Shown here one piece after another: positions 4,021 to 30,511 of a stretch of DNA of 32,619 bases. This DNA comes from a virus. The first letter of the stretch is position 1; each line of letters opens with the position of its first letter. Made by a program: the position numbers and the translations under genes. Below the pieces are notes generated by a model, which did not search any database, was not told the origin of the DNA, and was given only the letters and a program-made list of their open reading frames with translations. The stretch is from the IMG/VR virus record IMGVR_UViG_3300034104_001094, positions 1-32,619 of that record. The stretch is one strand, 5' to 3'.

Positions 4021-4052
4021 TACAGCAGTAGTCGTCTAGGGATAGGGAACAG

Positions 4053-7031: not shown

Positions 7032-7032
7032 A
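7017..7032 (+). repeat. 16-nt junction repeat (copy 1)
   Basis: ggacaacaggtgtaaa is identical at 8766-8781. It encodes the shared C-terminal GQQV plus the stop. Its CAGGTG is placed to serve as a Shine-Dalgarno site for the gene that starts directly after it. Confidence 0.8.
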
Positions 7033-7034
7033 CA

Positions 7035-8780: not shown

Positions 8781-8781
8781 A
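8766..8781 (+). repeat. 16-nt junction repeat (copy 2)
   Basis: Identical to 7017-7032. It ends the gene with GQQV-stop and lies immediately before the next ATG at 8784. Confidence 0.8.
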
Positions 8782-8783
8782 GC

Positions 8784-13672: not shown

Positions 13673-16110
13673 GATTAAATGGTGGTGTTATTGGTAAAAG
13701 CAATGAACCTACTAATAGACGTGCTCCAGGAGTTTGGAGTGCTGAAGAACAACGTACCCGTCAACTATACGGTAAATTTCCTAGATATTATGAAGGCTGG
13801 GATCTAACTTATTTAGTTAATAGTTCTCCTAACTTTGTAAGATCTTTTAGTCCTGGTGAAGCAGCTCCCACAGGCGTTACGTTTACTCCAAGCGGTAACA
13901 CAATGTTTATAGCTGGTTTTACCGGAGATGATATTAAACAGTACTCAGTAGCTACTCCGTGGAATATTTCAACGGCCACACTTACTAGTAACTATGCTGG
14001 AGGATCTAGCTCTACTTTAAATCCTACTGGTGTAGCTTTTCGCTCGGATGGTAGATCTATGTTTGTATCTACTTCAGAAGCTTTAGGCATAACTCAGCAT
14101 AGTCCTAATATAGCCTGGGCTTTTAGCACAGCTTCAACTGCTTACGGAAAATATTTTACAACACAGTCTAGTTTAGTCCCTAGTGGTATTTTTTTTAAAC
14201 CAGATGGGCTAGCTATGTTTATGTCTTGCTCAAGCGGAAGCACTCAAGTAATACAACAATATTCGTTAAGTCAAGCTTGGGATATACAGTCTGCTACTTA
14301 TATCAAACTATTTTCCGTTGCTTCTCAAGAGGGTTCACTTCAAGATGTGGCTTTTAGTAGTGACGGAACTAGTATGTTTATTATTGGAAATAGTAGTGAT
14401 AGAGTACATCAATATAGTTTAAGTACGGCTTGGGATGTTGGTACAGCTAGTTACGGTGGTACTAGTTTCTCTTTAGCCTCAGTAGAAACAGATTCTTCAG
14501 GATTAGCTTTTAGCTCTGACGGTCTTTATATGTTTATAGTAGGTTATGCGTCTGATACAGTGCGCAGATATGCTTTAGGTTCTTCGTTTAATATATCTAG
14601 TGCTTCTGCTTCCGGAACCTTCTTACTTAGCGCTCAAGAAACCAGTCCGCAAGGCATAGACTTTAGTTCAGATGGCACAATAATGTATATAGTGGGTTCT
14701 AGTGGAAATGATATAAATCAATACTCTCTTTCTACTGCTTGGAATATTTCTACAGCATCGTATGTAGGTACATCAAGTGCTTTATCTCCAAGCGTGCTTA
14801 GTATTAGATTCAAACCAGACGGTAAAAGAGCTTTTGTAGTTGGTTCTGGCGGTGGATCCGTTAGAGTCGCTGAGGTAGCCTTTACTACTGCTGGACAAGT
14901 CTCTACTATGCAAAATGGCAGCTTACCTTCTAGTATAATACCTAGATCAGAAGATGTAGTATTTAGTAGTGATGGCACTAATATGTATGTTGTAGAGAAT
15001 GCACTTCCTATTATTAGGCAATATAGCTTGGATTATCCATGGGATTTTTACTCAGCAAATTATATTGCTAACCTTTCTGTAGCTTCTAATGATACACAGC
15101 CTAAAGGTTTAAGATTTAGCAATGATGGTACTACTATGTTAGTGATCGGTACTCTAGGTGATAACGTATTACAGTATTCCTTAAGTAATGCATGGAGTGT
15201 GTCTTCTGCTACCTATGTGCAGAACTTTTATGTTAACCATCTAGAAGCTGTTCCTCAAGGTATTGATCTATCACCTGATGGTTCTAATTTATACTTGACA
15301 GGAGACTCTGTTGATAGTGTATTTCAAATTTCACTAGGTACTCCTAATAGTGTAAGATCTCCAGCAGATGATAGTATAAGCTACTCTGTAGCCGGAGAAG
15401 AAAACGCCCCTAATGGGTTAGCATTTAAAACAGATGGCACACTAATGTACGTAGCCGGAACTTCCGGAGATGATGTTAACCAGTATATGTTGAGCATTCC
15501 TTGGAATGTGTCAACTGCAAGCTATGTTGCAAACGTGTCTGTAGCTGATAGGGAAGGCACGTGCTCTGCAGTAGTATTTAAACCCGACGGGACTCGTATG
15601 TTTATACTAGGAGGCACCACTGATAGAGTACAAGAATACGCACTATCTGCTCCTTGGGATATCACAACTGCTACATATACTTCTAACGTTTCTGTAGCTG
15701 CCCAGGAAACTAGCCCTAATGGATTAGCTTTTAAACCAGATGGTACTAAAATGTATGTAGCCGGAGCCGCCGGAGATGATGTTAATGAGTATACTCTATC
15801 CATTCCTTGGAATGTAACAACTGCTAGCTTTGTACAAATATTCTCGGTTGCAGCACAAGATATATCACCAGAAGATGTAGTTTTTAATCCAGACGGAACT
15901 CGTATGTTTATACTAGGATCTACTAATGACCGCATATACCAATATAATCTATCTACTCCTTGGAACATATCTACTGCAACTTTTGATAGGAGTTTATATA
16001 TTGCTCATTTAGACGTAACTCCTACAGGCTTAACTTTTAAAGATGATGGTACTATATTATATCTACTTGGAAATAGTAGTGATAGAGTACATCAAATTAA
16101 TTTAGGATGA
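13669..16110 (+). CDS. GGVIG-anchored YVTN-like propeller adhesin (cassette B)
   Basis: This is an 813-residue protein. It carries the anchor NGGVIG...RRAPGVWSAEE, followed by about 15 repeats of roughly 50 residues. Each has a core such as FKPDGTKMYVAG..GDDVNEY and a link such as LSIPWNVSTASYV. I count 15 SDG/PDG-type cores from residue ~80 to the end. YVTN/PD40-like beta-propeller blades look like this. Fifteen repeats would make about two propellers (for example 7 + 8), with the most diverged stretch after the seventh core. The last repeat ends at the C-terminus. It shares its anchor with the glycine-rich adhesin at 11157, so the tip seems to have been swapped. The likely role is receptor binding. 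Confidence 0.7.
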   Translation: MRLNGGVIGKSNEPTNRRAPGVWSAEEQRTRQLYGKFPRYYEGWDLTYLVNSSPNFVRSFSPGEAAPTGVTFTPSGNTMFIAGFTGDDIKQYSVATPWNISTATLTSNYAGGSSSTLNPTGVAFRSDGRSMFVSTSEALGITQHSPNIAWAFSTASTAYGKYFTTQSSLVPSGIFFKPDGLAMFMSCSSGSTQVIQQYSLSQAWDIQSATYIKLFSVASQEGSLQDVAFSSDGTSMFIIGNSSDRVHQYSLSTAWDVGTASYGGTSFSLASVETDSSGLAFSSDGLYMFIVGYASDTVRRYALGSSFNISSASASGTFLLSAQETSPQGIDFSSDGTIMYIVGSSGNDINQYSLSTAWNISTASYVGTSSALSPSVLSIRFKPDGKRAFVVGSGGGSVRVAEVAFTTAGQVSTMQNGSLPSSIIPRSEDVVFSSDGTNMYVVENALPIIRQYSLDYPWDFYSANYIANLSVASNDTQPKGLRFSNDGTTMLVIGTLGDNVLQYSLSNAWSVSSATYVQNFYVNHLEAVPQGIDLSPDGSNLYLTGDSVDSVFQISLGTPNSVRSPADDSISYSVAGEENAPNGLAFKTDGTLMYVAGTSGDDVNQYMLSIPWNVSTASYVANVSVADREGTCSAVVFKPDGTRMFILGGTTDRVQEYALSAPWDITTATYTSNVSVAAQETSPNGLAFKPDGTKMYVAGAAGDDVNEYTLSIPWNVTTASFVQIFSVAAQDISPEDVVFNPDGTRMFILGSTNDRIYQYNLSTPWNISTATFDRSLYIAHLDVTPTGLTFKDDGTILYLLGNSSDRVHQINLG

Positions 16111-16543: not shown

Positions 16544-19500
16544 ATGGAAATTAAACGTATTAGTCCTTCATTTATTTCAACCGACGGCGCTACAGACGGT
16601 CAAGTGTTAGCTTATAGCGCTACTAGTAACAGTATCAGTTTTTCTGCAGCTGGCGGTGGTAGCGGAGTTACTGTGTATGCCAATGCTTCGGTACTTCCTA
16701 ATACTGGTATCTCTATTGGATCAGAAGCTTATGTAGAGTCTACAGATAGTTTATATATTTGGACTGTTAATAACGTTTGGCAACAAATTTCTACAGTTAA
16801 CACTCCTCCGAGTGCGCTAACTAATTATCTACCGATCTATTATCTAGCATCTAACGGCGCAGCAACCACAATTTCGTTTATCTCTTCAGATCCTGAAGAC
16901 ATACCTCTTAGCTGGGGGTACAACATAGTTAGTGGTGTGTTAGGCAATACAACTATAACTAATTCAGCTAATGTATTTACTATCACCCCGTCTACAAACT
17001 CGGTAGATGATGGTTTATTTGCTATAGACTTTTTTGCTAGCGACGGACTTTATAGTGCAAATGCAAACATACAGTTTAATTTAAGTTTTGCTCAAGGCTG
17101 GAATGTTTCTAATGCTACTCTAATTGGTAGCGCTAATGTTGCATTCTCAACTACAGCTCAAGAAACTAACCCGTTCGGAGTACAGCTTTCCGCTAACGGA
17201 ACCACAATGTATGTAGTAGGAGACGCTGGAGATGATATAAATCAATACACTCTTAGTGCTCCTTTTAACATTGATTCTCCTACGTTTGTAGCAGCTTATA
17301 CTTTTACAGCAAACGCGTCAGCTAATAACTTTGCTAATCCTAGAAACATTCAACTTAGTCCCGACGGTTCAAATGTGTACGCATTTGGAAATCTGTTTGA
17401 ACTAGGAACGGAGCCAGTAATAACACAGTTTTCTCTGCCAACTCCTAACAACTTAGCTACTATGACAACTAATTCACGTAACAGAAGATTTTCAGTAGCT
17501 CCTCAAGAAGCAGATTCTACAGAGTTATATTTTAGAGACGACGGTACTCGTATGTATATTATAGGAACTGCTGGAGACGATGTAAATGAGTATCAGTTAA
17601 GTCAAGCTTGGAATCCAAATACCGCTAGTTTTACCACTACGTTTTTAGTAAGTGGTAAAGAAACTACTCCAGGAGGAATATATTTTACTCCTAGTGGAAA
17701 TGCTTTTTACGTAGTAGGAACTACTAGTGATGCTGTACATAGGTATAATATGTCTACTGATTGGAGTGTCAACTCTGCTGTGTTTGCAAGCTCTTTCCCT
17801 TTAGCTAATCAGGAAACTATACCAACTTCAGTAGACTTTAAGCCTGATGGAACTCGTATGTACATTATTGGTCAGACTGGTGATGATTTTAATGAATATA
17901 CTCTAAGCACTCCTTGGGATATTACTACAGCATCATTTGTTAGATTACGAACACAATCTCAAGCCACTCTTCCAACTTCCATGCAATTTAGTAATACAGG
18001 TGCTAATTTATATATGACAGGCACCGCTTATGAAGTGCACAATTATACTCTTAGCGAAGCATGGAACGTAGCAACTATTACGTACCAATATACTTGGAAT
18101 CCTATATATGGTAGTGATTCAAGCACTCAAGGCATATATTTTAATCCTACTGGTGAATATTTTTATATACTTGGTCAAACTGGAGATAGAGTAATACCCT
18201 TTTTCCTACGAACTCCTTGGGATTTAAACTCTGCGTATCTTCCAGGTCTACTAGTAGACCAAAATAGGATGTCAGGATCTACTAATCATTTTAGACTAAA
18301 ACCTGATGGCACTAAACTATATGTAACCGGTGCAGCACATGATAACATATTAGAATATTCACTTAGTATTCCTTGGGATATCGCAAGTGCTGCTCATTCT
18401 AATACTTTTTCATTAGCGTCTGACACGCTAACACCACAAGGTATAGATTTAAGTGAAGATGGCACTGAAATATACGTAATAGACGGTAGTAGAACATACA
18501 CATACAAACTATCTACTCCTTGGGCTCTTAGTAGCGCTTATAGGTCTCAAACATTAAGACTGCCTAGTATCGTAATAAATGATGTTTTTATAAGCCCAAC
18601 AGGAGCAAACGTGTATTTAACACAAAGTTCTATTTCAGCTATTCTTCAGTACACTCTAACCAATCCTTGGGATTTAGATTCTATTAGCTCAAATACCGCG
18701 TTATCCCTCTCCGCTACTGCTGGCAGCCCTAGAGCGGTGACATTTAATGATCTAGGCACTAAGATGTACATAGCTCCTGGAAGCACTACAAGCTATCTAA
18801 TAAATGAATATACTCTATCCACTCCTTGGGATGTTACAACAGCTACCTATACTAAATATTATATGTTTGATCAGCCTAACGCAGCATCCGGTGTAGCACT
18901 TATTTCTCTATTAGAGTTTTCTCCTGATGGAAGAATTTTATATATAGGATCTGAAGAAACTGGAGCTGTAGAATATTTATATGCTGTTTACTTAACTGTA
19001 GCTTATGATCTATCCTCTATAGAAAAAATTGTACACACAGATTACTATAACATAGATACTACCGCAGCTAGCGGCATAGAATTCAGCAGCAATGGAGATA
19101 CTTTATATCTACAGATCTCAGGGACCATATATCCTGTAGATCTTTCAACTGCATACGATATATCTTCTCTAAAAATTCCTGCTAGACCAGCAGACTCTGG
19201 GGGTGTATATCAAGTAAGTGAGCGTTCAGATTTAGGTTCGCCCAGAGGATTAGCTTATAGTTCTAATGGTAAATACGCATATACAGCTACTAGCACTTCT
19301 TTATATAGACTTACGTTGGAAGAACCTTACAATTTATATTCAGCCAAACATCCTTACGTTACAAGATTACATCCTTATACTAATGCTGCTGATTATTATG
19401 ATATTAGTATAAAAGGTAATTCTATATTTACAGTTAATAATACCTTAGACAGCATTTTAAAGTTTCCTGTATCTAATGTAGACTCTAGAATCTCTTTCGG

Positions 19501-20254
19501 CAATGCTAACTCAGTTTCTGTAGCTAAGAATGCTTATTTAAATGCAGGCCCTGCAATGGATGATATAATTTTTAAGCCTGATGGAACTAAATTATTTGTG
19601 GCTGAATCTGGAACTACTATTTTAGAGTATGATTTGCTAACTCCTTGGGATTTAACTAGTATATCATTGCAAACAGCGTTAAACGTACCAAGACCTGGCG
19701 GAGCAGCTGATAGTATAAAGTTATCTTCAGATGGATACTATTTATATGTTCTTAGTGCTTCGGACGATAAAGTTTATCAATATAAACTAGCTAAACCTTG
19801 GACGGTATTCACTAGTGTACTAATCAACGAATTTTCAGTTGCTACTCAAGAAACTGCTCCGACAGCACTGGCTTTTAGTGACGACGGCGCTTACATGTAT
19901 GTAATGGGTACTTCAGGTGATGATATAAATCAATACACCCTTTCCACTCCGTGGAATATTTCAACCGCAACTTTTACCCGTACACAGTCTATTTCTGCTC
20001 AAGATACATCTCCTACAAATTTAACTTTTAAACCTGACGGAAGTAGGCTATATGTTAGAGGCGTTACTAATAACAGAGTGTCTGAGTACGCACTAAGCAC
20101 TCCTTGGAATGTATCTTCTCTTACATTTACAAGACAACTTCAACTACCTAGCTCATGGAGTGTAGGCGGTATAGCTTTAAATTATAATGGAACTAGACTT
20201 TATGTTGGCGATTCTACTTATGGATTTATTCGCGAATATATTATAGGAAGTTAA
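16544..20254 (+). CDS. Giant propeller adhesin with GA-DGQVL anchor (cassette B)
   Basis: This is a 1236-residue protein. Its anchor is IKRISPSFISTDGATDGQVL plus a small beta element, GVTVYANASVLPNTGISIGS (about 45-64). Residues ~86-185 look like a cadherin/Ig-type domain (SSDPEDIPLSWGYN, DDGLFAIDFFASDG). The rest is about 20 YVTN-like blades with cores such as FKPDGTRMYIIG, FSPDGRILYIG and FSDDGAYMYVMG, linked by LSTPWNISTATF-type segments. Twenty blades would suit about three seven-bladed propellers. The first and last blades are nearest the consensus and the middle ones are more diverged. It is the longest protein here and probably a large host-binding fibre. Confidence 0.7.
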   Translation: MEIKRISPSFISTDGATDGQVLAYSATSNSISFSAAGGGSGVTVYANASVLPNTGISIGSEAYVESTDSLYIWTVNNVWQQISTVNTPPSALTNYLPIYYLASNGAATTISFISSDPEDIPLSWGYNIVSGVLGNTTITNSANVFTITPSTNSVDDGLFAIDFFASDGLYSANANIQFNLSFAQGWNVSNATLIGSANVAFSTTAQETNPFGVQLSANGTTMYVVGDAGDDINQYTLSAPFNIDSPTFVAAYTFTANASANNFANPRNIQLSPDGSNVYAFGNLFELGTEPVITQFSLPTPNNLATMTTNSRNRRFSVAPQEADSTELYFRDDGTRMYIIGTAGDDVNEYQLSQAWNPNTASFTTTFLVSGKETTPGGIYFTPSGNAFYVVGTTSDAVHRYNMSTDWSVNSAVFASSFPLANQETIPTSVDFKPDGTRMYIIGQTGDDFNEYTLSTPWDITTASFVRLRTQSQATLPTSMQFSNTGANLYMTGTAYEVHNYTLSEAWNVATITYQYTWNPIYGSDSSTQGIYFNPTGEYFYILGQTGDRVIPFFLRTPWDLNSAYLPGLLVDQNRMSGSTNHFRLKPDGTKLYVTGAAHDNILEYSLSIPWDIASAAHSNTFSLASDTLTPQGIDLSEDGTEIYVIDGSRTYTYKLSTPWALSSAYRSQTLRLPSIVINDVFISPTGANVYLTQSSISAILQYTLTNPWDLDSISSNTALSLSATAGSPRAVTFNDLGTKMYIAPGSTTSYLINEYTLSTPWDVTTATYTKYYMFDQPNAASGVALISLLEFSPDGRILYIGSEETGAVEYLYAVYLTVAYDLSSIEKIVHTDYYNIDTTAASGIEFSSNGDTLYLQISGTIYPVDLSTAYDISSLKIPARPADSGGVYQVSERSDLGSPRGLAYSSNGKYAYTATSTSLYRLTLEEPYNLYSAKHPYVTRLHPYTNAADYYDISIKGNSIFTVNNTLDSILKFPVSNVDSRISFGNANSVSVAKNAYLNAGPAMDDIIFKPDGTKLFVAESGTTILEYDLLTPWDLTSISLQTALNVPRPGGAADSIKLSSDGYYLYVLSASDDKVYQYKLAKPWTVFTSVLINEFSVATQETAPTALAFSDDGAYMYVMGTSGDDINQYTLSTPWNISTATFTRTQSISAQDTSPTNLTFKPDGSRLYVRGVTNNRVSEYALSTPWNVSSLTFTRQLQLPSSWSVGGIALNYNGTRLYVGDSTYGFIREYIIGS

Positions 20255-20576: not shown

Positions 20577-21407
20577 ATGAAACAACTACACTTTTGCGGA
20601 GGTCTTCCGCGTACAGGATCTACAGTCCTGATGAATATTTTACAACAAAATCCATCTATATTTACTACCTCAACTGATCCTTATCCTCACATACTAAATG
20701 AGCAGATACTAGTCAAATCTAGATATAGCGAAGCTTTTCAGGCTATGAGTTGTGAACAAGCTGATGCGGCTATGTACGGGTTAGTGCAAGGTGGGACTAG
20801 TGGCTGGTATAGTGGGCTTACAAACAAGCCTATTGTAATTTCAAAAGCTAGGCAATGGAGTGGATTGCATCATCTTTTTCCAGATTCTAAGATTATAGTA
20901 ACAATTCGTGATCTAAGAGATATTGTTGAAAGCTTTGATCGAGTAAATTCTAAGATACGAGCACTACACACTTTTAGTGAAGATCACACTCTATATGCTT
21001 CTATGACTGAAGAAGAAAAGCTACACTATCACTTTAAAGAATCTAACGCACTATCTTCTACTCTACGTCACGAAATTCCTAAATATTTAGAGCTATTCAA
21101 AATCAATAACGCTAGAGTTAAGTTTGTGCGTTATGAAGACGTATTACGAGATCCTAGCTATATGCTATCTCGCATATACTCATTCTTAGGATTGGATAGC
21201 TTTAATCACGATTTAAATAATATTAACCAGTCTGAAATGTTTGAGCATGATAATGCTTATTTTAGAGAGAAAACAGATCACCGCACTCAACCTAAACTAA
21301 CTGCGTGGAGGGATCCTGTAAGAGTTCTTTCTGACAAATTTCATCAACAAGTTGTTAATAACAATAGCTGGTTTTATAAAGCTTTTTATCCTGAAGTGCT
21401 ACAATGA
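20577..21407 (+). CDS. PAPS-dependent sulfotransferase-like protein
   Basis: This is a 276-residue protein. Near the N-terminus, GGLPRTGSTVL (8-18) matches the 5'-phosphosulfate-binding loop of sulfotransferases. KIIVTIRDLRDIVESF carries the 3'-phosphate pair, Arg111 and Ser119, at the usual eight-residue spacing. VRYEDVLRDP is a further family feature. Full length suits the family. Such enzymes move sulfate from PAPS to hydroxyls or amines of glycans, small molecules or protein tyrosine, and the acceptor cannot be read here. It is the first gene of a cassette with three oxygenase proteins and a methyltransferase, joined to the next by ATGA. No signal peptide is seen, so it should act in the host cytoplasm. 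Confidence 0.75.
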   Translation: MKQLHFCGGLPRTGSTVLMNILQQNPSIFTTSTDPYPHILNEQILVKSRYSEAFQAMSCEQADAAMYGLVQGGTSGWYSGLTNKPIVISKARQWSGLHHLFPDSKIIVTIRDLRDIVESFDRVNSKIRALHTFSEDHTLYASMTEEEKLHYHFKESNALSSTLRHEIPKYLELFKINNARVKFVRYEDVLRDPSYMLSRIYSFLGLDSFNHDLNNINQSEMFEHDNAYFREKTDHRTQPKLTAWRDPVRVLSDKFHQQVVNNNSWFYKAFYPEVLQ

Positions 21408-21949
21408 ACGAACAATACGTCTTTTCAACTCCTATATGGGGTTATGTGTTAAACAATGAGCGGTCTAATATTCCTGTTTATATAAATGAAATTATTAGAC
21501 TAGCTAATACTACTGCTAGCGCTACAAAAAGTAATTTTGGTGGTTGGCAAAGTATCGACTCTTTACATCTAAATTCAATCTTCAAGCCTTTTGTTGACAC
21601 TCTTTCTGGCTTAGCTGCTGATATTGTGCCCACCTTTACTGATAGTAAGCATTGCCTACAATCTATGTGGGCTAATATAAATTATACTAACAATTTTAAT
21701 GCTCATCATACGCATGAGGGGTGGATTTCTGGAGTTTTTTACTTGCAGGTTCCTCCAACTTCTGGTAGATTAATATTAACAAATCCGAATATAAGAAGCT
21801 ACAACTCTCCTGTAAAACAAAAAGATTTTCCTATTACACCAGAGCCACTAGCTTGTATATTATTTCCTTCTTGGTTAGAACATTATGTAGAGCCTAATCA
21901 AGCTGAAATGCCACGAATTAGTATTAGTTTTAATATAGGTGAAGTATGA
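21404..21949 (+). CDS. Putative 2OG-Fe(II) oxygenase
   Basis: This is a 181-residue protein. The core HHTHEGWISGVFYLQVP (101-117) is followed by SGRLILTNPN and LFPSWLEHYVEPN...PRISISFNIG, with the distal His160 and Arg171. This order ('N.H.H....SGvyYl..p..sG.l...nP' then 'FPswl.H.V.pn....RisisfN') is the pattern of the phage 2OG-FeII_Oxy_5-type family. The metal ligands would be His102 or His104 with an acidic residue, and His160; Arg171 would bind 2-oxoglutarate. The exact facial triad is less standard than in the neighbours (HTHE rather than HxD). Substrate unknown. It overlaps both neighbours by ATGA. Confidence 0.65.
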   Translation: MNEQYVFSTPIWGYVLNNERSNIPVYINEIIRLANTTASATKSNFGGWQSIDSLHLNSIFKPFVDTLSGLAADIVPTFTDSKHCLQSMWANINYTNNFNAHHTHEGWISGVFYLQVPPTSGRLILTNPNIRSYNSPVKQKDFPITPEPLACILFPSWLEHYVEPNQAEMPRISISFNIGEV

Positions 21950-23217
21950 CTCCCTCAGAGTATTTTAAGAAAAATAAATATGTATATATTAGTGGCGCTG
22001 TGCCCCGCAATACATGTGATGATTTAACTAAGTATATGTTTAGCCTATATGATGAGGGTAAGCTTACTAAAGACCCTCAATGCCCTCTGTCTGACAGTGT
22101 GTACGGTGATCCAATACTAGACAATTTATTACAAGTTCTAGCAGCGCCACTATCTGCGCAGCTTGGAATTCAACTGTTGCCTACATACACTTATGCTCGT
22201 ATTTATAGACCCGGCGAAACTCTAGTACGTCATATTGATCGTGAAGCTTGTGAGATTTCTGGTACTATGACTCTAGGATTCGATCCTGGATCAGGTATTT
22301 GGCCTATATATTTTACAGGCGATAGAGATGATGTAGTAGGAACCTCAGTAGAAATTAATACTGGCGATCTTGTTATGTATCATGGCAATGAACTATGGCA
22401 TTGGCGCCCAGCATATCGAGGTAAATGGCAAGTTCAAGTATTCTTTCATTATGTAGATGCTAACGGTCCGCACGCTTCATGGGCTAATGATAAACGAACT
22501 ACTACGCCTAGCGTTAAAAGTTTAGATGCAGCCCCCGTAGTCGAAGCTAAGCAGATTACTAAAGCAGAAAATAATGCTTTTGCGGCTTTTAGTTCTAAAA
22601 TTATAAGCGATGGGCTAATAATTAAAACTAGCGATGATGTATTTCCAGGTGCAGTAACTTATCACTCGGGCTTTAATGCTGAACATACATTTAGCGCTGT
22701 AGAATGCGCTCGTATTATGGACTATAGTAAAAAACTATACCCAATTAAGTCTACTGTAGGTGATGGCGATAATAATAAGTATGATCCTAGTATCAGAGCA
22801 GTAGATACTTATAACATTGAATACAATGAAGAGAGTGCTTGGATATTTAAAAAGATTGCAGCAGCTGTAGGAAAAGCTAACGCTGAGTACTATCGTTATG
22901 ATCTGTATGGCATAACTCATGCGTTACAGCTACTACACTATAAAGCTACTGAAAATGGTCATTATGATTGGCATATTGATTGTGGAAATGGTGCTAGTGC
23001 AACTCGTAAAATTTCTGTGTCCGTTCCCTTAACTAGACGTGATGCTTATGTTGGTGGAAAGCTTATTATTAATAATAATGGATCAGAAGTAACAGCTGTA
23101 GACGAGCAAGGTTCTATTTCTATGTTTCCTAGCTATTTACTGCATCAAGTAACTCCCGTTACTGCAGGAGAACGTTGGGTAATTGTTATTTGGATTAATG
23201 GACCTAGGTTTAAATAA
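21946..23217 (+). CDS. Tandem two-domain 2OG-Fe(II) oxygenase
   Basis: This 423-residue protein has two dioxygenase domains in one chain. Domain 1 (about 1-180) has YARIYRPGETLVRHIDREAC with His96 and Asp98, then INTGDLVMYHGNELWHWRP with distal His152, and QVQVFFHYVDANGPH. Domain 2 (about 235-423) has LLHYKATENGHYDWHID with His343 and Asp345, then SMFPSYLLHQVTPV with His400, and ERWVIVIWINGP with Arg410. Both keep an HxD...H triad, so both may be active. Domain 1 resembles stand-alone phage oxygenases and domain 2 resembles prolyl-4-hydroxylase-type enzymes. A linker of about 50 residues joins them. Hydroxylation of a protein, glycan or small molecule is possible; the substrate is unknown. 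Confidence 0.75.
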   Translation: MTPSEYFKKNKYVYISGAVPRNTCDDLTKYMFSLYDEGKLTKDPQCPLSDSVYGDPILDNLLQVLAAPLSAQLGIQLLPTYTYARIYRPGETLVRHIDREACEISGTMTLGFDPGSGIWPIYFTGDRDDVVGTSVEINTGDLVMYHGNELWHWRPAYRGKWQVQVFFHYVDANGPHASWANDKRTTTPSVKSLDAAPVVEAKQITKAENNAFAAFSSKIISDGLIIKTSDDVFPGAVTYHSGFNAEHTFSAVECARIMDYSKKLYPIKSTVGDGDNNKYDPSIRAVDTYNIEYNEESAWIFKKIAAAVGKANAEYYRYDLYGITHALQLLHYKATENGHYDWHIDCGNGASATRKISVSVPLTRRDAYVGGKLIINNNGSEVTAVDEQGSISMFPSYLLHQVTPVTAGERWVIVIWINGPRFK

Positions 23218-23942
23218 TGAATTGTTATGAAAAGCTTTATTTTATAAAGCAGTATACTGATAGCATAGGCTCTATATACGGCACAGAAGACTTTGCTATA
23301 TTTTTATACTCTCTTATAAAAATGAGAAAATCTAAAACAGTGGTAGAGTTAGGAACTGGCTTAGGATCTATAATGCTATGGTCTGCACTAGCTCTACAAG
23401 AAAACAGCTCAGGGCATTTTTATACTGTAGATAATGGTAGCGAATGGCTTAGTTTAAAAGCAGCTAGACCTCAAATGGGCCCACTATTTAGAGAAGAGTA
23501 TGCAGATTATGTTAACAATTTAATCAACTATTTTAAGCTATCTGATAGTGTTACCTTTATTAACAACCAAATTAATTTAGCTAATCTGCCTAACAACATA
23601 GACATTATATTTTCAGACTTTGCTCATGGGCCTAAAGATATTGTAAGCATGTTACCTGATATGCTACTTAAATGTGCAGATAGTGCTGTAATAATGTTTG
23701 ATTCTGCAAGCACATATTATTCATCTTATCATACGTTAGAGGCTATAGTAGCATTGTTCAACGCAGGTAAAATACCTGCAAGTATGAAATCGTCTGAGCA
23801 GTTACAGAAAAAAATTAGTACTAGCAAGTTTACTATTCAACATATGGTAGAATCTAAGCCTAGAGCACAAAACAGCACCGCGTGTTTGTATATAGATCCT
23901 ATTGATATTTTGCCACACCCACTAACTAATATGAGGTTTTAA
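23217..23942 (+). CDS. Class I SAM-dependent methyltransferase
   Basis: This is a 241-residue protein. Motif I is TVVELGTGLGS (41-51), the acidic residue ending the second strand is in FYTVDNG (Asp72), and IDIIFSDFAHGPKD holds Asp134 at the motif IV position. The arrangement fits a small-molecule or O-methyltransferase-type Rossmann fold, and no DNA-methylase signature (NPPY/DPPY, or a PC motif) is present. It lies between two 2OG oxygenase genes and overlaps each by one base (TAATG), so co-expression is likely. Methylation of a hydroxyl made by a neighbouring oxygenase is an attractive but unproven idea. Confidence 0.65.
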   Translation: MNCYEKLYFIKQYTDSIGSIYGTEDFAIFLYSLIKMRKSKTVVELGTGLGSIMLWSALALQENSSGHFYTVDNGSEWLSLKAARPQMGPLFREEYADYVNNLINYFKLSDSVTFINNQINLANLPNNIDIIFSDFAHGPKDIVSMLPDMLLKCADSAVIMFDSASTYYSSYHTLEAIVALFNAGKIPASMKSSEQLQKKISTSKFTIQHMVESKPRAQNSTACLYIDPIDILPHPLTNMRF

Positions 23943-24514
23943 TGTTACAAGTAATTGATAATGTTATTGGAGATAAATATTCTCAACGATTATTTGAGCA
24001 TTGCGTTAGTTTAAAATGGACGTTTGTACCAGACATTTCGTTAGGAAATCAAGCTGCTCGTAATGTTCCCGGATTTTCTTATAACTTCTTTTTGCATAAA
24101 GATTTTAATAATATAGAGCCAGCAACTATAAATACTAATGAATATAGTTTTGTACTTCCTGCGCTACTTGAGGCTATAGACAAATTTGGTCTTACATCTA
24201 TTTCAGCAGAAAACATATTTAGAAGTAGAGCAAGACTTACTTTACCACATCCAGAACTGTCTGAAGAGCAGCGCATGGACAATCCTCATATAGACTATAA
24301 AATTCCTCATTATGTATTGCTATACTATGTTAACTCTACAGATGGTGACACCCTTATGTTAGATGGTAATATAATAAGAGATAGAATAACCCCTAAACGA
24401 GGTAGATTCGTGTTATTTGATGGAAGCATTTTACACTCATCATCAACGTCAACTCTAAGTCCTCGTATAATAATTAATAATAATATTAGACTACCAATAA
24501 AAGGAGATGCCTAA
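23942..24514 (+). CDS. 2OG-Fe(II) oxygenase
   Basis: This is a 190-residue protein. It has PHIDYKIPHYVLLYYVNSTD with His116 and Asp118, then ITPKRGRFVLFDGSILHSSS with distal His165, and SPRIIINNNI with Arg175. This is a complete HxD...H...R set of a 2OG-Fe(II) dioxygenase of the phage/prolyl-hydroxylase type. With the 181- and 423-residue proteins it makes four oxygenase domains in a row, broken only by the methyltransferase. A strong AAGGAG for the next gene lies inside its 3' end. The substrate is not recognisable. Confidence 0.7.
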   Translation: MLQVIDNVIGDKYSQRLFEHCVSLKWTFVPDISLGNQAARNVPGFSYNFFLHKDFNNIEPATINTNEYSFVLPALLEAIDKFGLTSISAENIFRSRARLTLPHPELSEEQRMDNPHIDYKIPHYVLLYYVNSTDGDTLMLDGNIIRDRITPKRGRFVLFDGSILHSSSTSTLSPRIIINNNIRLPIKGDA

Positions 24515-24837
24515 TGGCTGTTGTAGAATACATGTTTAACATAGACGATAATGGGAAACGTTATATCCCAGGATTTATAGATAATAGAGGTCATTGGTAC
24601 GACCCTAATACGGAGACTTATATCGGCTGGATTAAAGATTCTAGAGATTTTTACGTTCCTGACTCTATTGTTAGTTTAACTAAAGAAGAGTTAGTCCAAC
24701 GTCAATTAGCAATTCACGCTATTTCTCCCATGAATAATTTTGGTAATATTGAATCAGGACCTACAGTTATGACAGAAGAAGAAGTTAGAACTCAAGTTGA
24801 AACTTGGTATGATGCTTTTGTGGTGGAAAATTCTTAA
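24514..24837 (+). CDS. Hypothetical protein, 107 residues
   Basis: I do not recognise this family. The N-terminal half is aromatic and Gly/Asp-rich (GKRYIPGFIDNRGHWYDPNT, then YIGWIKDSRDFYVPDS). The C-terminal half is helical and acidic (LTKEELVQRQLAIHAIS; MTEEEVRTQVETWYDAF). There is no membrane segment or signal. The start is backed by AAGGAG 7 bases upstream, the best RBS in the cassette, so it may be made in quantity. Its size and position next to virion genes would suit a small structural or chaperone-like protein, but there is no motif evidence. Confidence 0.5.
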   Translation: MAVVEYMFNIDDNGKRYIPGFIDNRGHWYDPNTETYIGWIKDSRDFYVPDSIVSLTKEELVQRQLAIHAISPMNNFGNIESGPTVMTEEEVRTQVETWYDAFVVENS

Positions 24838-24968
24838 TGGAACTAGTTTTAGCTACAAAATTAAGCGACTTTTCAAAAACTGAATTAACAGAAGTTTTAA
24901 GAAAGCTATTAACACAAGACAGAGAAGCTTTTATGCTTTTAAAAGAGCTTGTAGAAGATGTATTATAG
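24837..24968 (+). CDS. Small 43-residue hypothetical protein
   Basis: The ORF starts with TAATG overlapping the previous stop and ends 8 bases before the next start. This is the same coupling used by real genes in this cassette. The product MELVLATKLSDFSKTEL... continues as a helical, charged peptide with EVLRKLLTQDREAFMLLKEL and looks soluble and amphipathic. It fills an otherwise unexplained gap exactly. The function is unknown; a small regulator or assembly partner is possible. Confidence 0.5.
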   Translation: MELVLATKLSDFSKTELTEVLRKLLTQDREAFMLLKELVEDVL

Positions 24969-24976
24969 GTAATTAT

Positions 24977-25891
24977 ATGACAGAACAACCACAAAGCAAT
25001 TCTATTGCTATATTTAACGATTTAAAATATGATTTAGTAGTAAAAGATGGATCAGAATTTACTATTCCGCTGTCTACTATTTTTGGACGAGGTACAGTAG
25101 CTAAGTCTGAGTCTTTTGGAGGTACTAGCTTAGCTGTAAATGCTCAAAAAGTAGACTTAGCTATAGCTAATACCAAAGATTTACAAAATATTTGGAATCG
25201 TAGCCATACTCAATGGATGTGGAAACACTTAAATCTTTCTTATTTAGATCCACACAAGAACATGAGACAAGTAGCAGCTGAAATAGCGCGTAAACGTCAA
25301 GCTTTAAACGAAGCTAAATGGAATCAGTTAAAGAATGAAATTAAAATTCGCAAGATTGAAGAGCAACTATCCAACGTAGAACTACTAGATCACTGGCAAG
25401 AAATAGAACTTACTGTTAAAAAAGCTGAACTACAAGAAAAAATGGCCGAAGGCATTAGCTATATTGAAGGTGCCATGAAAGATGTGCTTGCTTTGAATAA
25501 CTTATTTGAGCAATTAAAGTCTAAAGTCACCGACTTTAACGAGCTAGACATAGAAAAAGCTGAATCAAAAGCCCACTTAAAACGTAGTATTACTCAATGC
25601 ATTAGAGATGTTCGTCAAAGTGGTTCTATAACTAAAGGTGAACAAGAATATTTAGAACAAATTGGAGTAAATCCAATGAAAATGATGCAGCGTATTAGAG
25701 AATATGTAGCTAGAGAAGCTTCGTCTAGTAGTTGGGATGTTGCTATGTTGCATGAATTTGTAGATGCAGTTGCAGACGAGCTAATTGATGTGTGCAAAGT
25801 AGATGAAATTAGAATGTCAAAAATGGGATTAGATACTAGTATTGATGAAAGTATTGCCTATGATAAGCTAATTGGTAATTCTAATACCTAA
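24977..25891 (+). CDS. Coiled-coil protein of unknown function
   Basis: This is a 304-residue protein. The first ~75 residues are mixed (FNDLKYDLVVKDGSEFTIPL, STIFGRGTVA). Residues ~75-200 are strongly helical and charged (AAEIARKRQALNEAKWNQLK, ELTVKKAELQEKMAEGISYI), indicating coiled coil. The last 100 residues are also helical (YLEQIGVNPMKMMQRIREYV). No catalytic motif, signal peptide or membrane helix is visible. It is the last gene before the terminator at 25919. Candidate roles are an internal virion, scaffold-like or tail protein, and I cannot choose among them. Confidence 0.5.
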   Translation: MTEQPQSNSIAIFNDLKYDLVVKDGSEFTIPLSTIFGRGTVAKSESFGGTSLAVNAQKVDLAIANTKDLQNIWNRSHTQWMWKHLNLSYLDPHKNMRQVAAEIARKRQALNEAKWNQLKNEIKIRKIEEQLSNVELLDHWQEIELTVKKAELQEKMAEGISYIEGAMKDVLALNNLFEQLKSKVTDFNELDIEKAESKAHLKRSITQCIRDVRQSGSITKGEQEYLEQIGVNPMKMMQRIREYVAREASSSSWDVAMLHEFVDAVADELIDVCKVDEIRMSKMGLDTSIDESIAYDKLIGNSNT

Positions 25892-25918: not shown

Positions 25919-25954
25919 ATGCTATGTTAGTATCTTACTAACATAGCATTTTTA
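25919..25954 (+). terminator. Rho-independent-like terminator
   Basis: A perfect 14-bp inverted repeat (atgctatgttagta / tactaacatagcat) with a 3-base loop is followed directly by a T-run (ttttta). It begins 27 bases after the stop of the coiled-coil gene. The stem is A+T-rich, as is the genome. It ends the fibre/modification transcription unit and is followed by a fresh promoter. Confidence 0.75.
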
Positions 25955-26049: not shown

Positions 26050-26053
26050 AAGG
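26050..26053 (+). promoter_or_regulatory. Shine-Dalgarno site that fixes the start at 26059
   Basis: AAGG lies 5 bases before ATG 26059. An in-frame TTG at 25996 would extend the protein by 21 residues, but it lies inside the promoter -35 box, so it would not be on the mRNA. Confidence 0.65.
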
Positions 26054-26058
26054 TTTCT

Positions 26059-26475
26059 ATGATAAAAGTATTTGTTAACGGCACATTTGATGTTCTACAC
26101 TCAGGACATTTGCAACTATTAGCTCATGCTAAGAGCTTAGGTGATACGCTACTAGTAGCTCTAGACACGGATGATCGAGTATCTGCTAAAAAAGGACCAA
26201 GTCGTCCAGTAAATTCTTTAGTTACTAGATTGCATATTATGAGTTTTTTAAAGCCAGTAGACTCGGTCACTGCATTCAGCAGTGATGCTGAGTTAGAATC
26301 TATAATTAAAAATTACTGCCCAGATGTTATGGTTGTAGGATCAGATTGGCAAGGCAAGTCCGTTATAGGCAGTCAATATGCTAAACGCTTAGTATTTTTT
26401 GATAGAATAAAGAATTTTTCTACTTCAGCTACTTTAGATAAGTATTTGGGTAGTATAAGAGAGAACGATAAATGA
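26059..26475 (+). CDS. Cytidylyltransferase-like nucleotidyltransferase
   Basis: The protein is 138 residues from ATG 26059. VNGTFDVLHSGHLQLLAHAK carries the GTFD..H.GH nucleotide-binding signature (His14, His17). PDVMVVGSDWQGKSVIG and a FSTSATLDKY ending match the 'G.Dw......G' and 'iSTt.i' motifs of the TagD / RfaE C-terminal family. These enzymes make CDP- or ADP-activated alcohols or sugars, such as CDP-glycerol or ADP-heptose, for surface polymers. Which nucleotide and substrate cannot be told. It is first in an operon with fibre genes (ATGA overlap with the next), so surface-glycan synthesis or virion decoration is a plausible context. Confidence 0.7.
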   Translation: MIKVFVNGTFDVLHSGHLQLLAHAKSLGDTLLVALDTDDRVSAKKGPSRPVNSLVTRLHIMSFLKPVDSVTAFSSDAELESIIKNYCPDVMVVGSDWQGKSVIGSQYAKRLVFFDRIKNFSTSATLDKYLGSIRENDK

Positions 26476-28766
26476 GTAATACCTTTACTACTCCAGCAGT
26501 GGTTACCACTCTTTCTCAAAGTAGATTAGACTACAATGAGTCATTACTTACACTGCTTCAAAATTTTGCTAGTGCTGGCCAACCTTCTGGAGGAAACATA
26601 ACTACAGATGGTACTACTGGCTTGCGTACTGGTATGTTATGGTATAAAAGTGGATCTGATACTACCGACGGCCAAGGTAGAATGCTTGTTTATGATGGTA
26701 CAGGCTTTACTAGAAACGGGTTAGTAACTTACAAAATGCCTAGCGTTGCAGCAGCTAACTCTGCTGTAGTAGCTTCTAAAATTTCATATGGTGAGTTAGT
26801 TTCTGTAGGGACAGATGCACTATACATGGTTAATGCAGCTAATACAGGTATTTTTCAAGTAGGTGGAGATGCTATAACACTATCTGGGTTAACTTCTACT
26901 CAGTTTGTTAGAACCGATGTTACTTCTACTATAACAGCAAATCTAACTTTTAGCGGAAGTGGATTTGTTAAAGTACCGTCTGGCAATGATGCTCAGCGCC
27001 CTACTTCGCCAGTTGCAGGTATGTTCCGTTTTAATAGTAATACAATAAGTTTTGAAGGGTATGACGGAGTAGAATGGGGTGCTATTGGCGGGGGTGGGGC
27101 CTTCACTGATGACGGTACTTATATACATTACACTGGAAGCGCTAATGTTGGTATTGGAACTGCCACTCCGTCAGCCAATCTTCATATAGTTGGAACTGGT
27201 AATTTACTTAAGTTAGAAACTGGTACTGCTACTGATGCAAATGGGGTTACTTTAAGACTACAGCAAACCGACACAACTATGGATGTTAATCAGAGTTATG
27301 GCGGAGTTGAATGGGCAGGATTAGATGTTGGAAACGTTGGTGTTAGGGGTTATATTAAAGGTATAGCGGAAGGCACTTCTGGAGAATTTGGACTTAGGCT
27401 AGCTACTCAAGGATCTGGAGCGAGTGCTCCTGTAGATAGAGTTAACATTGGCGCTAGTGGTAATGTTGGTATTGGTGTTAGCGCTAATACTACATTACAA
27501 ATTGCTGGAAACGTAAGCATGTCCGGCGGCGACGCCACCATTTTTAATAGAGAAAACTTTTATTTAGCTCTAGGAGCTAATAATACTGAAGCTATTAGAA
27601 TACTTCCTAGCACTAATATTGGTATAGGGATTACAGCTCCTACAGCAAACTTACACGTTGCCGGAACTGGTTCTATAGTAAAGCTACAAACTGCTACTAC
27701 TACCGATACTAACGGTGTAGCTATGCAGTTTGTACAATCAGACACTACAATAATTAGCGGTCAAGGATATGGCGGCGTAGAATGGTTAGGTTCAGATATT
27801 GAAGGATCTGGTGTTAGAGGCTATATAAAAGGATTTGGGGAGGGCACCTCAGGTGAGTTTGGAATTAGACTGGCTACTCAAGGCTCAGGTGCCAGCGCTC
27901 CTATTGACAGACTTTATGTAGTTTCTAATGGTAACGTTGGTATTGGGGCTATTTCACCTTCTGAAAGATTAGAAGTGTATGGAACTACAAAAGCTAATAA
28001 TATAACCTCTACAAACCTACTAAGTGCTACAACTTCTAATTTAGACGGTGCTGTAACTGTTAACGAGTCTGGAGCTGCTGTTGATTTTAGGGTAGAATCT
28101 GATACTAAAACACATGCGCTATTTTTACTAGGCACTAGTGGTAACGTAAGTTTAGGCACATCTGTACCTACTCAACAGTTGCATATATATGCTAATGATA
28201 CTACTAGCACACAATTATTGCTTGAGCAAGACTCTACTGGTGATGTTGGAGTACAATTTAAGCTAACTGGCGAAAAAGACTGGACGTTAGGAGTTGACAA
28301 TTCTGATAGCAACAGCTTTAAGATTGAAAACGGATCTTCTATAGGTAGCAGCAACGATTTTGTTATTGCTAGCAACGGTTTTGTTGCTATTGGTACAGCA
28401 AATCCTACTGCCAGACTATATGTTAATGGTGTTACAAAATCTCTTAGCTACACTGAAACTGTAGTTACCCTAAGCGGAACCACTCCTTCTGTAGACTGTA
28501 CTCTAGGTAATATTTTTGAACTTACTACTTCTGGAGCTACTACTTTTACTTTTACCAACCCTCCGGCTTCAGGAACAGCGTATAGTTTCACTCTTACTGT
28601 TACTGCTGGAGGAGCTTATGCAATAAATTGGCCTGCAAGTGTTAGGTGGTCTTTAGATATTACTCCGTCAGCTCCAGGATCTGGAGAAGTTGATGTGTAT
28701 GTATTCTATACAACTACCGGTGGTAGCATTTGGTACGGCTTCCAAGCAGGGAACGCATTAGCATGA
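26472..28766 (+). CDS. Long tail fibre with NVGIG beta-repeats
   Basis: This is a 764-residue protein. The N-terminus has FASAGQPSGGNITTDGTTGL and LRTGMLWYKSG; such segments with 'G.lwyd...' are usual in marine phage fibres. From residue 225 on, motifs such as NVGIGTATPSANLHI recur about every 50-100 residues, as in beta-helical fibre shafts. A 106-residue block is duplicated (225-330 and 382-487). The C-terminal ~90 residues (FELTTSGATTFTFTNPP, WPASVRWSLDITP, WYGFQAG) are a familiar beta-sandwich tip. It is translated by ATGA overlap after the nucleotidyltransferase. A distal or long tail fibre is the likely role. Confidence 0.75.
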   Translation: MSNTFTTPAVVTTLSQSRLDYNESLLTLLQNFASAGQPSGGNITTDGTTGLRTGMLWYKSGSDTTDGQGRMLVYDGTGFTRNGLVTYKMPSVAAANSAVVASKISYGELVSVGTDALYMVNAANTGIFQVGGDAITLSGLTSTQFVRTDVTSTITANLTFSGSGFVKVPSGNDAQRPTSPVAGMFRFNSNTISFEGYDGVEWGAIGGGGAFTDDGTYIHYTGSANVGIGTATPSANLHIVGTGNLLKLETGTATDANGVTLRLQQTDTTMDVNQSYGGVEWAGLDVGNVGVRGYIKGIAEGTSGEFGLRLATQGSGASAPVDRVNIGASGNVGIGVSANTTLQIAGNVSMSGGDATIFNRENFYLALGANNTEAIRILPSTNIGIGITAPTANLHVAGTGSIVKLQTATTTDTNGVAMQFVQSDTTIISGQGYGGVEWLGSDIEGSGVRGYIKGFGEGTSGEFGIRLATQGSGASAPIDRLYVVSNGNVGIGAISPSERLEVYGTTKANNITSTNLLSATTSNLDGAVTVNESGAAVDFRVESDTKTHALFLLGTSGNVSLGTSVPTQQLHIYANDTTSTQLLLEQDSTGDVGVQFKLTGEKDWTLGVDNSDSNSFKIENGSSIGSSNDFVIASNGFVAIGTANPTARLYVNGVTKSLSYTETVVTLSGTTPSVDCTLGNIFELTTSGATTFTFTNPPASGTAYSFTLTVTAGGAYAINWPASVRWSLDITPSAPGSGEVDVYVFYTTTGGSIWYGFQAGNALA
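27144..27461 (+). repeat. 106-residue fibre block, copy 1
   Basis: 318 bp encode N[VI]GIG...NLH[IV].GTG...YGGVEW...GVRGYIKG...EGTSGEFG.RLATQ and then GSGASAP.DR. It has the same length as copy 2 at 27615-27932, with divergent codons. Confidence 0.85.
27615..27932 (+). repeat. 106-residue fibre block, copy 2
   Basis: Same 318-bp length and motif order as 27144-27461, with 153 bp between the two. Identical stretches include EGTSGEFG and LATQGSGASAP. Confidence 0.85.
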
Positions 28767-30031
28767 GTTTTTTAAGTAATAAATTAAGAATGGTAAGCTT
28801 GCCTGAATACGGTAAACCGCCTCAGTGGTTATTAAAATTAACTAATACAGGTACTAGTACTGTGGGTGCTGCAGTAGACTCTCAAGATAATATTATTGTA
28901 GTAGGCACTACTTCAAGCTTTGGAGCAGGGGGTTCAGATGCTCTAATAGCTAAATATTCTTCTACAGGTACTTTAGTATGGGCGCGAACTGTCGGCACAA
29001 CCTCTAGCAATGAAGGCGGTTCTAAAATTGATATTGATTCTCAAGATAATATTATTGCAATCATAAGATCTGGAACTTCTGGCATTTCTACTATTGTAAA
29101 ATATAATTCTACAGGAGTATTTCAGTGGGCTTTAAGGCTAAACACTACTGATAGCGGGGATAACCTAAGTAGCTTAGCCATAGATTCTTCTGACAATATT
29201 TTAGTTGCAGGTGGTATTGTAACTGGCGCTAGCGGTGCTCAAGATGCTTTTATAAGCAAAATATCTTCGGCAGGGGTTGTACAGTGGAGAAGAAGACTGG
29301 GCGGTACTGGTAGCGATTATGCTAGGGGTATAGATGCCGATTCGTCAGGAAATGTATATGTTGGAGGTACAAGCTCTTCTTTAGGTACGAACTATAGTTT
29401 TTGGGTAGCAAAATTTGATTCCTCTGGAACTTATGCAGGAGGTAGAAGAGTTCAGTATGGTAATTGCAATGCAATAAAAGTAAATAGGCTCACTAATATA
29501 ATATATGCTATAGGCACTGAATCCTTTTCTGGAACTGATGTATATTTTTTAACCTATAGTACCGCTTTAACCTTAATTTCAAGAATAAAATTTGGAACTA
29601 GTAATACTGATTTTCTAGACAGCTGCTACTTAGATAGAACTGGTAATGTTATATTAGTTGGAAGCGTATCTGGTAACAGCATATACCTAACAAAAAGAAG
29701 TAGTGTAGGTAGCCAAATTTGGTCGGGAACTTTATACAATAATGTTTTTTCAAGTTTTAGTAGTTCTGCGTATTGCGACTCTACAGATAATATTATAACA
29801 GTTGGTCCTACTGGTTTAGTAGCAAAATTACACCCAGACGGTCTGGGGGCCGGTACTTATGGAGAATATACATATAGTGGGTTAACAGAATCTAATAGGG
29901 GAGCTGTTCAAGGATTAGAAGCCAGCATAACAACATTTACAAGCGCTACACCTTCTATTGGATTTATAACGCCAACACTTACAGATAATTCTGCAGCTAT
30001 ATCAGATACATTAACCAATATAACAGTATAA
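28763..30031 (+). CDS. SBBP/delta-60-like beta-propeller adhesin
   Basis: This is a 422-residue protein with about seven repeats. Each has a 'DSQDNIIVVGTTSS' or 'DSSGNVYVGGTSSS' strand pair and a 'DALIAKYSSTGTLVWAR' or 'DAFISKISSAGVVQWRR' partner. This is the layout of SBBP-type beta-propellers. The start is set at ATG 28763, which overlaps the upstream stop (ATGA), rather than the GTG-type start at 28730 that would intrude 37 bases into the fibre gene. The C-terminal ~60 residues (from about EYTYSGLTESNRGAV) are not propeller-like. It follows a fibre gene and precedes an assembly-chaperone-like gene, so it is probably a fibre tip or receptor-binding protein. Confidence 0.65.
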   Translation: MSFLSNKLRMVSLPEYGKPPQWLLKLTNTGTSTVGAAVDSQDNIIVVGTTSSFGAGGSDALIAKYSSTGTLVWARTVGTTSSNEGGSKIDIDSQDNIIAIIRSGTSGISTIVKYNSTGVFQWALRLNTTDSGDNLSSLAIDSSDNILVAGGIVTGASGAQDAFISKISSAGVVQWRRRLGGTGSDYARGIDADSSGNVYVGGTSSSLGTNYSFWVAKFDSSGTYAGGRRVQYGNCNAIKVNRLTNIIYAIGTESFSGTDVYFLTYSTALTLISRIKFGTSNTDFLDSCYLDRTGNVILVGSVSGNSIYLTKRSSVGSQIWSGTLYNNVFSSFSSSAYCDSTDNIITVGPTGLVAKLHPDGLGAGTYGEYTYSGLTESNRGAVQGLEASITTFTSATPSIGFITPTLTDNSAAISDTLTNITV

Positions 30032-30043
30032 GGAAAATAAAAA

Positions 30044-30511
30044 ATGACTTACGTAAAAGTAGATAAAAGTAATAAAATTGTAGAATTCCCCTATAGTACT
30101 AATAAGTTGAGGGGTGATAACAAAAATACTAGTTTTCCTAGAAATATGTCTGAAGACTTATTAAACTCTTTTGGAGTTTATAGAGTTACCGTACAAGAAG
30201 CACCTACTATAGATGAAAAAATCTATAAAATTGTTTTGAAAAACGCTCCAGAGCTATCAAACGATGTTTGGGCTCTAAACTGGGATATAGTTGAAAAATC
30301 AGCACAAGAAAAACAAGACTACTATGATCAAGCCGCTCAACGAGTTAGAAATACTAGAGCTTCGTTATTAGCTGCTAGCGATTGGACACAACTTCCAGAT
30401 GTATCTGTAGACGTTACTGCTTGGACAGCATATAGACAAGCTCTAAGAAATATAACATCCTCTCCTAAGTTTCCCTATTTAGAAGATAGCGACTGGCCCG
30501 TTCAACCATAA
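30044..30511 (+). CDS. Tail-assembly-chaperone-like protein
   Basis: This is a 155-residue protein. It begins with a beta part (MTYVKVDKSNKIVEFPYST), then a long helix (AQEKQDYYDQAAQRVRNTRA). The C-terminal signature LLAASDWTQLPDV, WTAYRQALRNITS and DSDWPVQP is the hallmark of the Phage_tail_APC-type family. It follows the propeller gene with RBS AAGGAAAA. Its C-terminal half is similar in style to the 16115 product. The likely role is to help fold or trimerise the fibre encoded just upstream. Confidence 0.7.
   Translation: MTYVKVDKSNKIVEFPYSTNKLRGDNKNTSFPRNMSEDLLNSFGVYRVTVQEAPTIDEKIYKIVLKNAPELSNDVWALNWDIVEKSAQEKQDYYDQAAQRVRNTRASLLAASDWTQLPDVSVDVTAWTAYRQALRNITSSPKFPYLEDSDWPVQP

Follow-up and report, generated by a model that had tools for sequence, protein, structure and literature searches.

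The window analyzed here is a complete virus record of IMG/VR (IMGVR_UViG_3300034104_001094; 32,619 bases). Within its fibre island lies a cassette of genes for a PAPS (3'-phosphoadenosine 5'-phosphosulfate)-dependent sulfotransferase (ST), three 2-oxoglutarate (2OG)-Fe(II) oxygenases (OX181, OX423, and OX190), a methyltransferase (MT) dependent on S-adenosylmethionine (SAM), and two small proteins (s107 and s43), followed by a gene that we call g24. The features of this region are as follows, with match values in parentheses.

20577-21407, + strand: ST, PAPS-dependent sulfotransferase, 276 aa (Pfam Sulfotransfer_3, 2e-18)
21404-21949, + strand: OX181, 2OG-Fe(II) oxygenase, 181 aa (2OG-FeII_Oxy_5, PF13759, 8e-20; TIGR02466, 3.5e-20)
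21946-23217, + strand: OX423, tandem oxygenase, 423 aa (C-terminal half, 2OG-FeII_Oxy_3, 1e-15; N-terminal half, probable 2OG domain)
23217-23942, + strand: MT, class I SAM methyltransferase (Pfam Methyltransf_24, 3e-10)
23942-24514, + strand: OX190, 2OG-Fe(II) oxygenase, 190 aa (2OG-FeII_Oxy_3, 5e-5; phrog_274, 4e-29)
24514-24837, + strand: s107, conserved 107-aa protein (40-sequence family)
24837-24968, + strand: s43, conserved 43-aa protein
24977-25891, + strand: g24, 304-aa protein predicted to be all-helical, signature of the module (169 viral relatives by profile)
25919-25949, + strand: stem-loop with a perfect 14-bp stem and a T-rich tail, 27 bases 3' of g24 (both orientations score)

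The original prediction for this DNA had placed the sulfotransferase, the 181-, 423-, and 190-residue proteins, the SAM methyltransferase, and two small ORFs (open reading frames) at 20577-24968, and all of them were found there. The nearly universal ATGA/TAATG joins that it described were also borne out, with neighbouring ORFs from ST through s43 overlapping by 4 bp (ATGA) or 1 bp (TAATG) at each junction. The span itself was drawn too short, since the run goes on to g24, which starts 8 bases past the end of s43 and makes the unit one gene longer. Because g24 follows s43 so closely and the hairpin comes 27 bases later, ST to g24 looks like a single transcription unit, with the hairpin probably acting as the terminator that closes it. 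The cassette genes are under purifying selection: the ratio of nonsynonymous to synonymous changes (pN/pS) relative to T5-type relatives was 0.20 to 0.43, compared with 0.14 to 0.27 for the terminase, values that are rough because synonymous sites are close to saturation. Dozens of independent viral contigs also show this content and order, and the cassette is not a chance arrangement.

This recurrence was followed through g24. Loci were drawn from the best 80 of its 169 viral relatives, near-identical g24s were collapsed, and at least 4 kb was required on each side, which gave 26 loci. The tandem oxygenase and a gene for a propeller-like fibre protein with GYTSGG repeats were each present in 24 of them, s107 in 22, s43 in 16, ST in 11, OX181 in 9, and MT and OX190 in 7 each. 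The core of the module is OX423 with g24 and s107; ST, with or without OX181, and the pair MT plus OX190 are optional. When MT copies were considered, the adjacent labelled gene was OX190 in 30 of 42. The same genes were thus present in the same setting on independent contigs, which makes the set a conserved syntenic module. Absence or scattering of the cassette in close relatives had been named beforehand as an outcome that would speak against a dedicated function; in the synteny search, the set recurred. No relative of g24 was detected in 50,697 GenBank phage records (tblastn) or in 84,980 bacterial and archaeal genomes (pattern scan). Its model was all-helical, with a pLDDT (predicted local distance difference test) score of 77, and a search of a viral structure library gave no identifiable fold relative (best E, 0.003).

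The large terminase of the window (30528-31811) is of the T5 type, with about 38 to 40% identity to those of T5 and T5-like Vibrio phages, and the first 25 kb gave no near DNA match among GenBank phages. On five contigs of 55 to 219 kb (L017, L018, L023, L026, and L029), ST was 57 to 72% identical to that of the window, yet the terminases aligned with the window's only in part, at 20 to 28% identity. Because of this disparity, the module appears to move between phage lineages. A search of bacterial genomes gave no host assignment: OX423-like matches were mostly to the N-terminal half alone near housekeeping genes, or fell on short contigs of metagenome-assembled genomes that may be phage. The cyanobacterial-host marker psbA was absent from 15 IMG/VR carriers, which are fragments; among carriers, the Synechococcus phage S-SKS1 alone has it.

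We next consider the fibre genes, whose products are candidate substrates of the enzymes.

4053-8780, + strand: g6 and g7, fibre proteins with GYTSGG propeller-like C-terminal repeats
11157-12158, + strand: g10, fibre protein with a Gly-rich domain (PF21722, 2e-12)
13669-16110, + strand: g14, long SGL/lactonase-type beta-propeller repeat protein (SGL, 8e-20; Lactonase, 2.5e-12)
16544-20254, + strand: g16, 1236-aa lactonase-type beta-propeller repeat protein (Lactonase, 7e-17)

In the window, g14 and g16, with a short ORF between them, precede ST, and g6 and g7 lie farther upstream. The repeat of g6 and g7 is about 47 residues long (GYTSGG...P...NTIDKFPFASDANATDVGDLTxxRxxxAGQSS), with six copies in g7. 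Kelch proteins have about six repeats of 44 to 56 residues with a GG pair; in GYTSGG proteins, the spacing had a mode of 47 and the commonest count was six. No sequence match to these repeats was found in Pfam or the PDB, and from its spacing the region looks like a kelch-like six-blade propeller. GYTSGG proteins often occurred in arrays, with up to 13 matches in one 155-kb contig.

Among the 28 clusters with a labelled upstream gene, ST was located directly 3' of a propeller gene in 24 (within 174 bp in 23), and it preceded OX181 or the tandem oxygenase in 22 of the 28 clusters with a labelled downstream gene. In a single-cell marine virus (L003, 5756-7583), ST lies 55 bp 3' of a gene for a Gly-rich fibre protein, not a propeller. 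Less closely related tandem oxygenases (about 33% identity) were mostly without g24 and without GYTSGG propellers. At most 3 kb upstream of them, 28 of 31 loci encoded a protein whose C-terminal tip is Gly-rich, often with one short ORF between, against a background of 1 among 169 other ORFs in the same loci. The tandem oxygenase tracks the fibre tip even where the tip is of another type. Among the loci with a tandem oxygenase, g24 and propellers went together (7 loci with both, 0 with g24 only, 2 with a propeller only, and 36 with neither; Fisher p=8e-7, a guide only because the loci share ancestry).

These results bear on the view that the enzymes are unrelated cargo, that is, moron genes or auxiliary metabolic genes (AMGs) that gather in a fibre island prone to recombination and act each alone on host metabolites. 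In the literature, genes of this kind usually figure as AMGs (PMC10580990, PMC12285232), and their modular presence and absence would be expected of cargo. However, the fixed order, the overlapping frames, the common terminator, a g24 specific to this setting, and the co-occurrence of g24 with propellers argue for genes that belong together, and we regard independent cargo as quite unlikely.

Other features of the fibre island were also recorded. An SBBP-type propeller protein is encoded at 28730-30031 (PF06739, 5e-11), followed by a gene resembling those for tail fibre assembly (30044-30511), and the island holds three propeller families: GYTSGG, SGL/lactonase, and SBBP. A degenerate shaft repeat (ANDYNTYTTL.. 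/ LTANTYNTLLAAQ..) is common to g5, g6, g7, g8, and g12, whose C-terminal tips differ (1996-10817, 12562-13311). A cytidylyltransferase-like gene at 26053-26475 (PF01467, 1e-13; PHROG name, heptose-phosphate adenylyltransferase) recurs near propeller genes in L007, L075, L115, L127 to L131, L133, and L167 and is possibly another modification gene of the island.

Four 2OG domains with HxD...H-type motifs had been predicted in the three oxygenases. Three of the domains are well supported, and the motif is present in both halves of OX423 and in OX190; it does not extend to OX181. The latter scored above its family cut-offs (PF13759, 71.5 bits against 27; TIGR02466, 72.7 bits against 62.5) and has an invariant HTH...H...R motif, with HTH and then E in five relatives, in place of the HxD/E iron motif. 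The C-terminal half of OX423 falls within the 2OG superfamily, with an invariant H343-x-D345...H400...R410 and a family match. It was closest to PKHD-type hydroxylases (PiuC, Sbal_3634) and prolyl-4-hydroxylases (PDB profile matches of 2e-10 and 2e-5); unlike them, OX423 is a two-domain tandem protein of 423 aa. Against the NCBIfam equivalog cut-offs, the score of this half was far too low (64 of 143 bits at best). In the N-terminal half, H96-x-D98 and H152 were invariant in 17 relatives. No Pfam family matched this half at E<=5, and the weak matches of its family were all to 2OG enzymes (HalD, 0.095; PhyH, 0.097; Tet-like, 0.49); it is probably the fourth 2OG domain. The PHROG label "ferrochelatase" for this half was rejected after five members gave no ferrochelatase match in Pfam at E<=5. 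The same name on N-terminal-half homologues (21946-22503 in the window; phrog_2954) in many cyanophage records looks like a misannotation; HxD...H, typical of 2OG enzymes, is invariant in them. When the profiles of the OX423 halves were compared with each other, no internal duplication emerged.

OX190 also falls within the 2OG superfamily, with HID...H...R and its phrog_274 match (4e-29), the Pfam score of 24.5 bits being slightly below the 27-bit cut-off. In cyanophage records, its phrog_274 homologues commonly carry the name "DNA endonuclease V / DenV," which misfits the domain found. Many 2OG genes resembling those of OX181 and OX190 are present in one region, on both strands and without g24, in the viral contigs L231, L235, L246, and L256, where they make up a larger cluster of oxygenase genes. 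PADLOC matches in the cassette were set aside as generic 2OG and methyltransferase models.

MT had no match among GenBank phages by tblastn and only weak, local matches to O-methyltransferases. Together with the 2OG enzymes, it could in principle modify DNA or nucleotides. PHROG names in the cassette include "DNA endonuclease V" and "DNA methyltransferase," and the N-terminal half of OX423 has the faint Tet-like matches mentioned above, but the good matches are to PKHD and prolyl-hydroxylase types, no DNA-methyltransferase family matched in Pfam, and neither the placement among fibre genes nor a sulfotransferase fits such a role, which we consider scarcely tenable. With two small conserved ORFs adjoining tailoring enzymes, the unit could instead encode a pathway for a small molecule or a peptide, for which s43 or s107 would be the precursor peptide that is modified. 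The AlphaFold model of s107 had a pLDDT of 92.7, indicating a well-folded protein unlike a leader-core peptide; s43 showed no variable core in 30 copies, as judged by length and family only; and the Pfam matches of the unit included no domains of transporters, proteases, or cyclases. Such a pathway is very improbable. No fold relative of s107 could be identified (best match in the viral library, 0.008; in the PDB, 1.2); as modelled, it may represent a new small fold, and it could serve as a chaperone or adaptor.

ST belongs to the PAPS sulfotransferase superfamily (Pfam, 67.8 bits against a cut-off of 27), with GLPRTGST in the 5'-phosphosulfate-binding (5'-PSB) loop and RDLRD followed by S119 in the 3'-phosphate-binding (3'-PB) motif, both conserved. 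The closest solved relatives of its profile were the protein-tyrosine sulfotransferases (TPSTs) TPST1/2 (3.6e-13; PDB 5wri, 5wrj, 9wp1, and 3ap1), with which the 5'-phosphosulfate loop (PRxGST) and the 3'-phosphate motif (RDLRDxxxS) align. TPSTs are Golgi enzymes of eukaryotes. The next solved matches were the CurM polyketide-synthase sulfotransferase (about 1e-8) and cytosolic sulfotransferases (6e-5).

A sulfotransferase may also act on sugars, and the enzymes could modify the host surface (lipopolysaccharide, capsule, or exopolysaccharide), for example by sulfating and methylating sugars, to block superinfection or free progeny; the fibre-gene neighbourhood would then reflect a shared concern with the receptor. 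As is generally known, the superfamily of ST holds many carbohydrate sulfotransferases. Its sole NCBIfam match was the nodulation protein NoeE (8.7e-6), at 24.7 of 500 bits and thus far under the cut-off, and the heptose-phosphate-type nucleotidyltransferase gene at 26053-26475 lies in the same island. On the other hand, the enzymes directly track two unrelated types of fibre tip, the unit has no glycosyltransferase and is located in the late structural block, and the closest solved 2OG relatives are of protein- or peptide-acting types. We therefore consider modification of the host surface unlikely.

Because of the linkage to fibre genes, the conserved order, and the motifs, the most economical reading is that the cassette is a post-translational modification unit for receptor-binding fibre tips, and we favour this function with moderate confidence. 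It is further favoured by the closest solved relatives of ST (protein-tyrosine sulfotransferases) and of the OX423 C-terminal half (PKHD hydroxylases and prolyl-4-hydroxylases), by the single run of overlapping genes that closes at a hairpin, by purifying selection, and by S-SKS1, in which ST independently lies within a propeller array. Late in infection, the adjacent genes would yield receptor-binding proteins tipped with propellers or Gly-rich domains. OX423 would hydroxylate tip residues, and g24, s107, and s43 would serve as scaffold, chaperone, or adaptor. Where present, ST would add sulfate from PAPS and MT a methyl group, and OX181 and OX190 would carry out additional oxidations. The altered tip surface may then change receptor binding or stability. 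In this scheme, the enzyme activities, the fibre substrate, the modified residues, and a benefit for adsorption are all what we infer from the genes and their setting. A dedicated modification pathway acting on the fibres or on a surface glycan or receptor had been proposed originally. The set is coherent, conserved, and specifically linked to fibres, as that proposal would have it, but its make-up is modular, not that of a single fixed pathway; the fibre half gained support from the linkage, and the glycan or receptor half gained none.

Several points weigh against fibre-tip modification. No modified residue is directly evidenced. Fibre islands gather cargo genes, and so linkage alone does not amount to function. 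One distant tandem oxygenase (L187) sits among DNA-metabolism genes, and some ST relatives are found elsewhere, e.g., in S-SCSM1. No difference in composition was seen between propellers beside ST and those without it: when the contents of Tyr, Pro, Asp/Glu, Lys, Asn, and Cys were compared between loci with and without ST or MT, the smallest p was 0.03 in 12 tests, which is no signal. Substrate hints derived from the PDB are skewed towards whatever has been solved, and the substrates of some PKHD-type enzymes are not known to us. Finally, the catalytic Glu of TPSTs, in the GEETR region after the 5'-PSB loop, aligns to a varying T, S, or D in ST relatives; ST is thus not assigned to the TPSTs, and working in their manner is a possibility. 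We know of no phage precedent for a sulfotransferase acting on virion proteins.

In a wider sense, the cassette may represent an undescribed mobile phage module in which combinatorial hydroxylation, with optional sulfation and methylation, of propeller receptor-binding arrays adds chemical diversity beyond sequence, a proposal that we make tentatively and regard as doubtful. 2OG oxygenases and sulfotransferases are common in marine phages and usually filed as AMGs, and the fibre linkage suggests a concrete job for them, namely to act on the receptor-binding proteins encoded next to them. If fibre tips are modified in this way, phage host range would be set by fibre chemistry as well as fibre sequence, and fibres produced in E. 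coli, like those predicted from sequence, would miss part of the binding surface. g24 provides a signature gene for locating the module, and S-SKS1 is a cultured phage that carries part of it.

A literature search, with subscription papers and preprints outside it, found no description of this gene set, in agreement with the original prediction, whose author knew of no such phage system; its remark that single 2OG oxygenases are common in marine phages agrees with what we found. Where 2OG oxygenases and sulfotransferases of phages come up, they are treated as separate AMGs (PMC10580990, PMC12285232, PMC9301287), and one paper says that the function of the sulfotransferases "remains unclear" (PMC10580990). 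Among known phages, S-SKS1 (208 kb) carries propellers at nine places, with ST within the array, an adjoining OX181-like gene (34%), and a homologue of the OX423 N-terminal half a few kilobases from this region. It differs in having only 28 to 34% identity and no g24, and its genes are annotated as hypothetical proteins, sulfotransferase, 2OG-Fe(II) oxygenase, and ferrochelatase. ST homologues were also found in other cyanophages and in single-cell viruses. Clusters of 2OG oxygenase and "ferrochelatase" genes in cyanophages and pelagiphages (S-CAM8, P-RSM4, HTVC023P, and HTVC033P) have the halves of OX423 as two distinct genes side by side, which in the pelagiphages HTVC023P and HTVC033P lie in the tail region; these phages have no g24 and no MT relative (tblastn). 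The tailed phage vB_PcaM_CBB has Kelch-type propeller proteins, one of them found in the virion, and the excerpted account mentions no modification cassette (PMC5259590). As excerpted, another report describes a prolyl-4-hydroxylase that the algal virus PBCV-1 itself encodes, a 2OG enzyme whose proposed targets are proteins of the virus (PMC9301287); that is one enzyme, whereas here a multi-enzyme set is tied to fibre genes in tailed phages. Viral modification of virion proteins is already known as a kind of function, and the set of sulfotransferase, oxygenases, and methyltransferase tied to fibre genes would be a new form of it.

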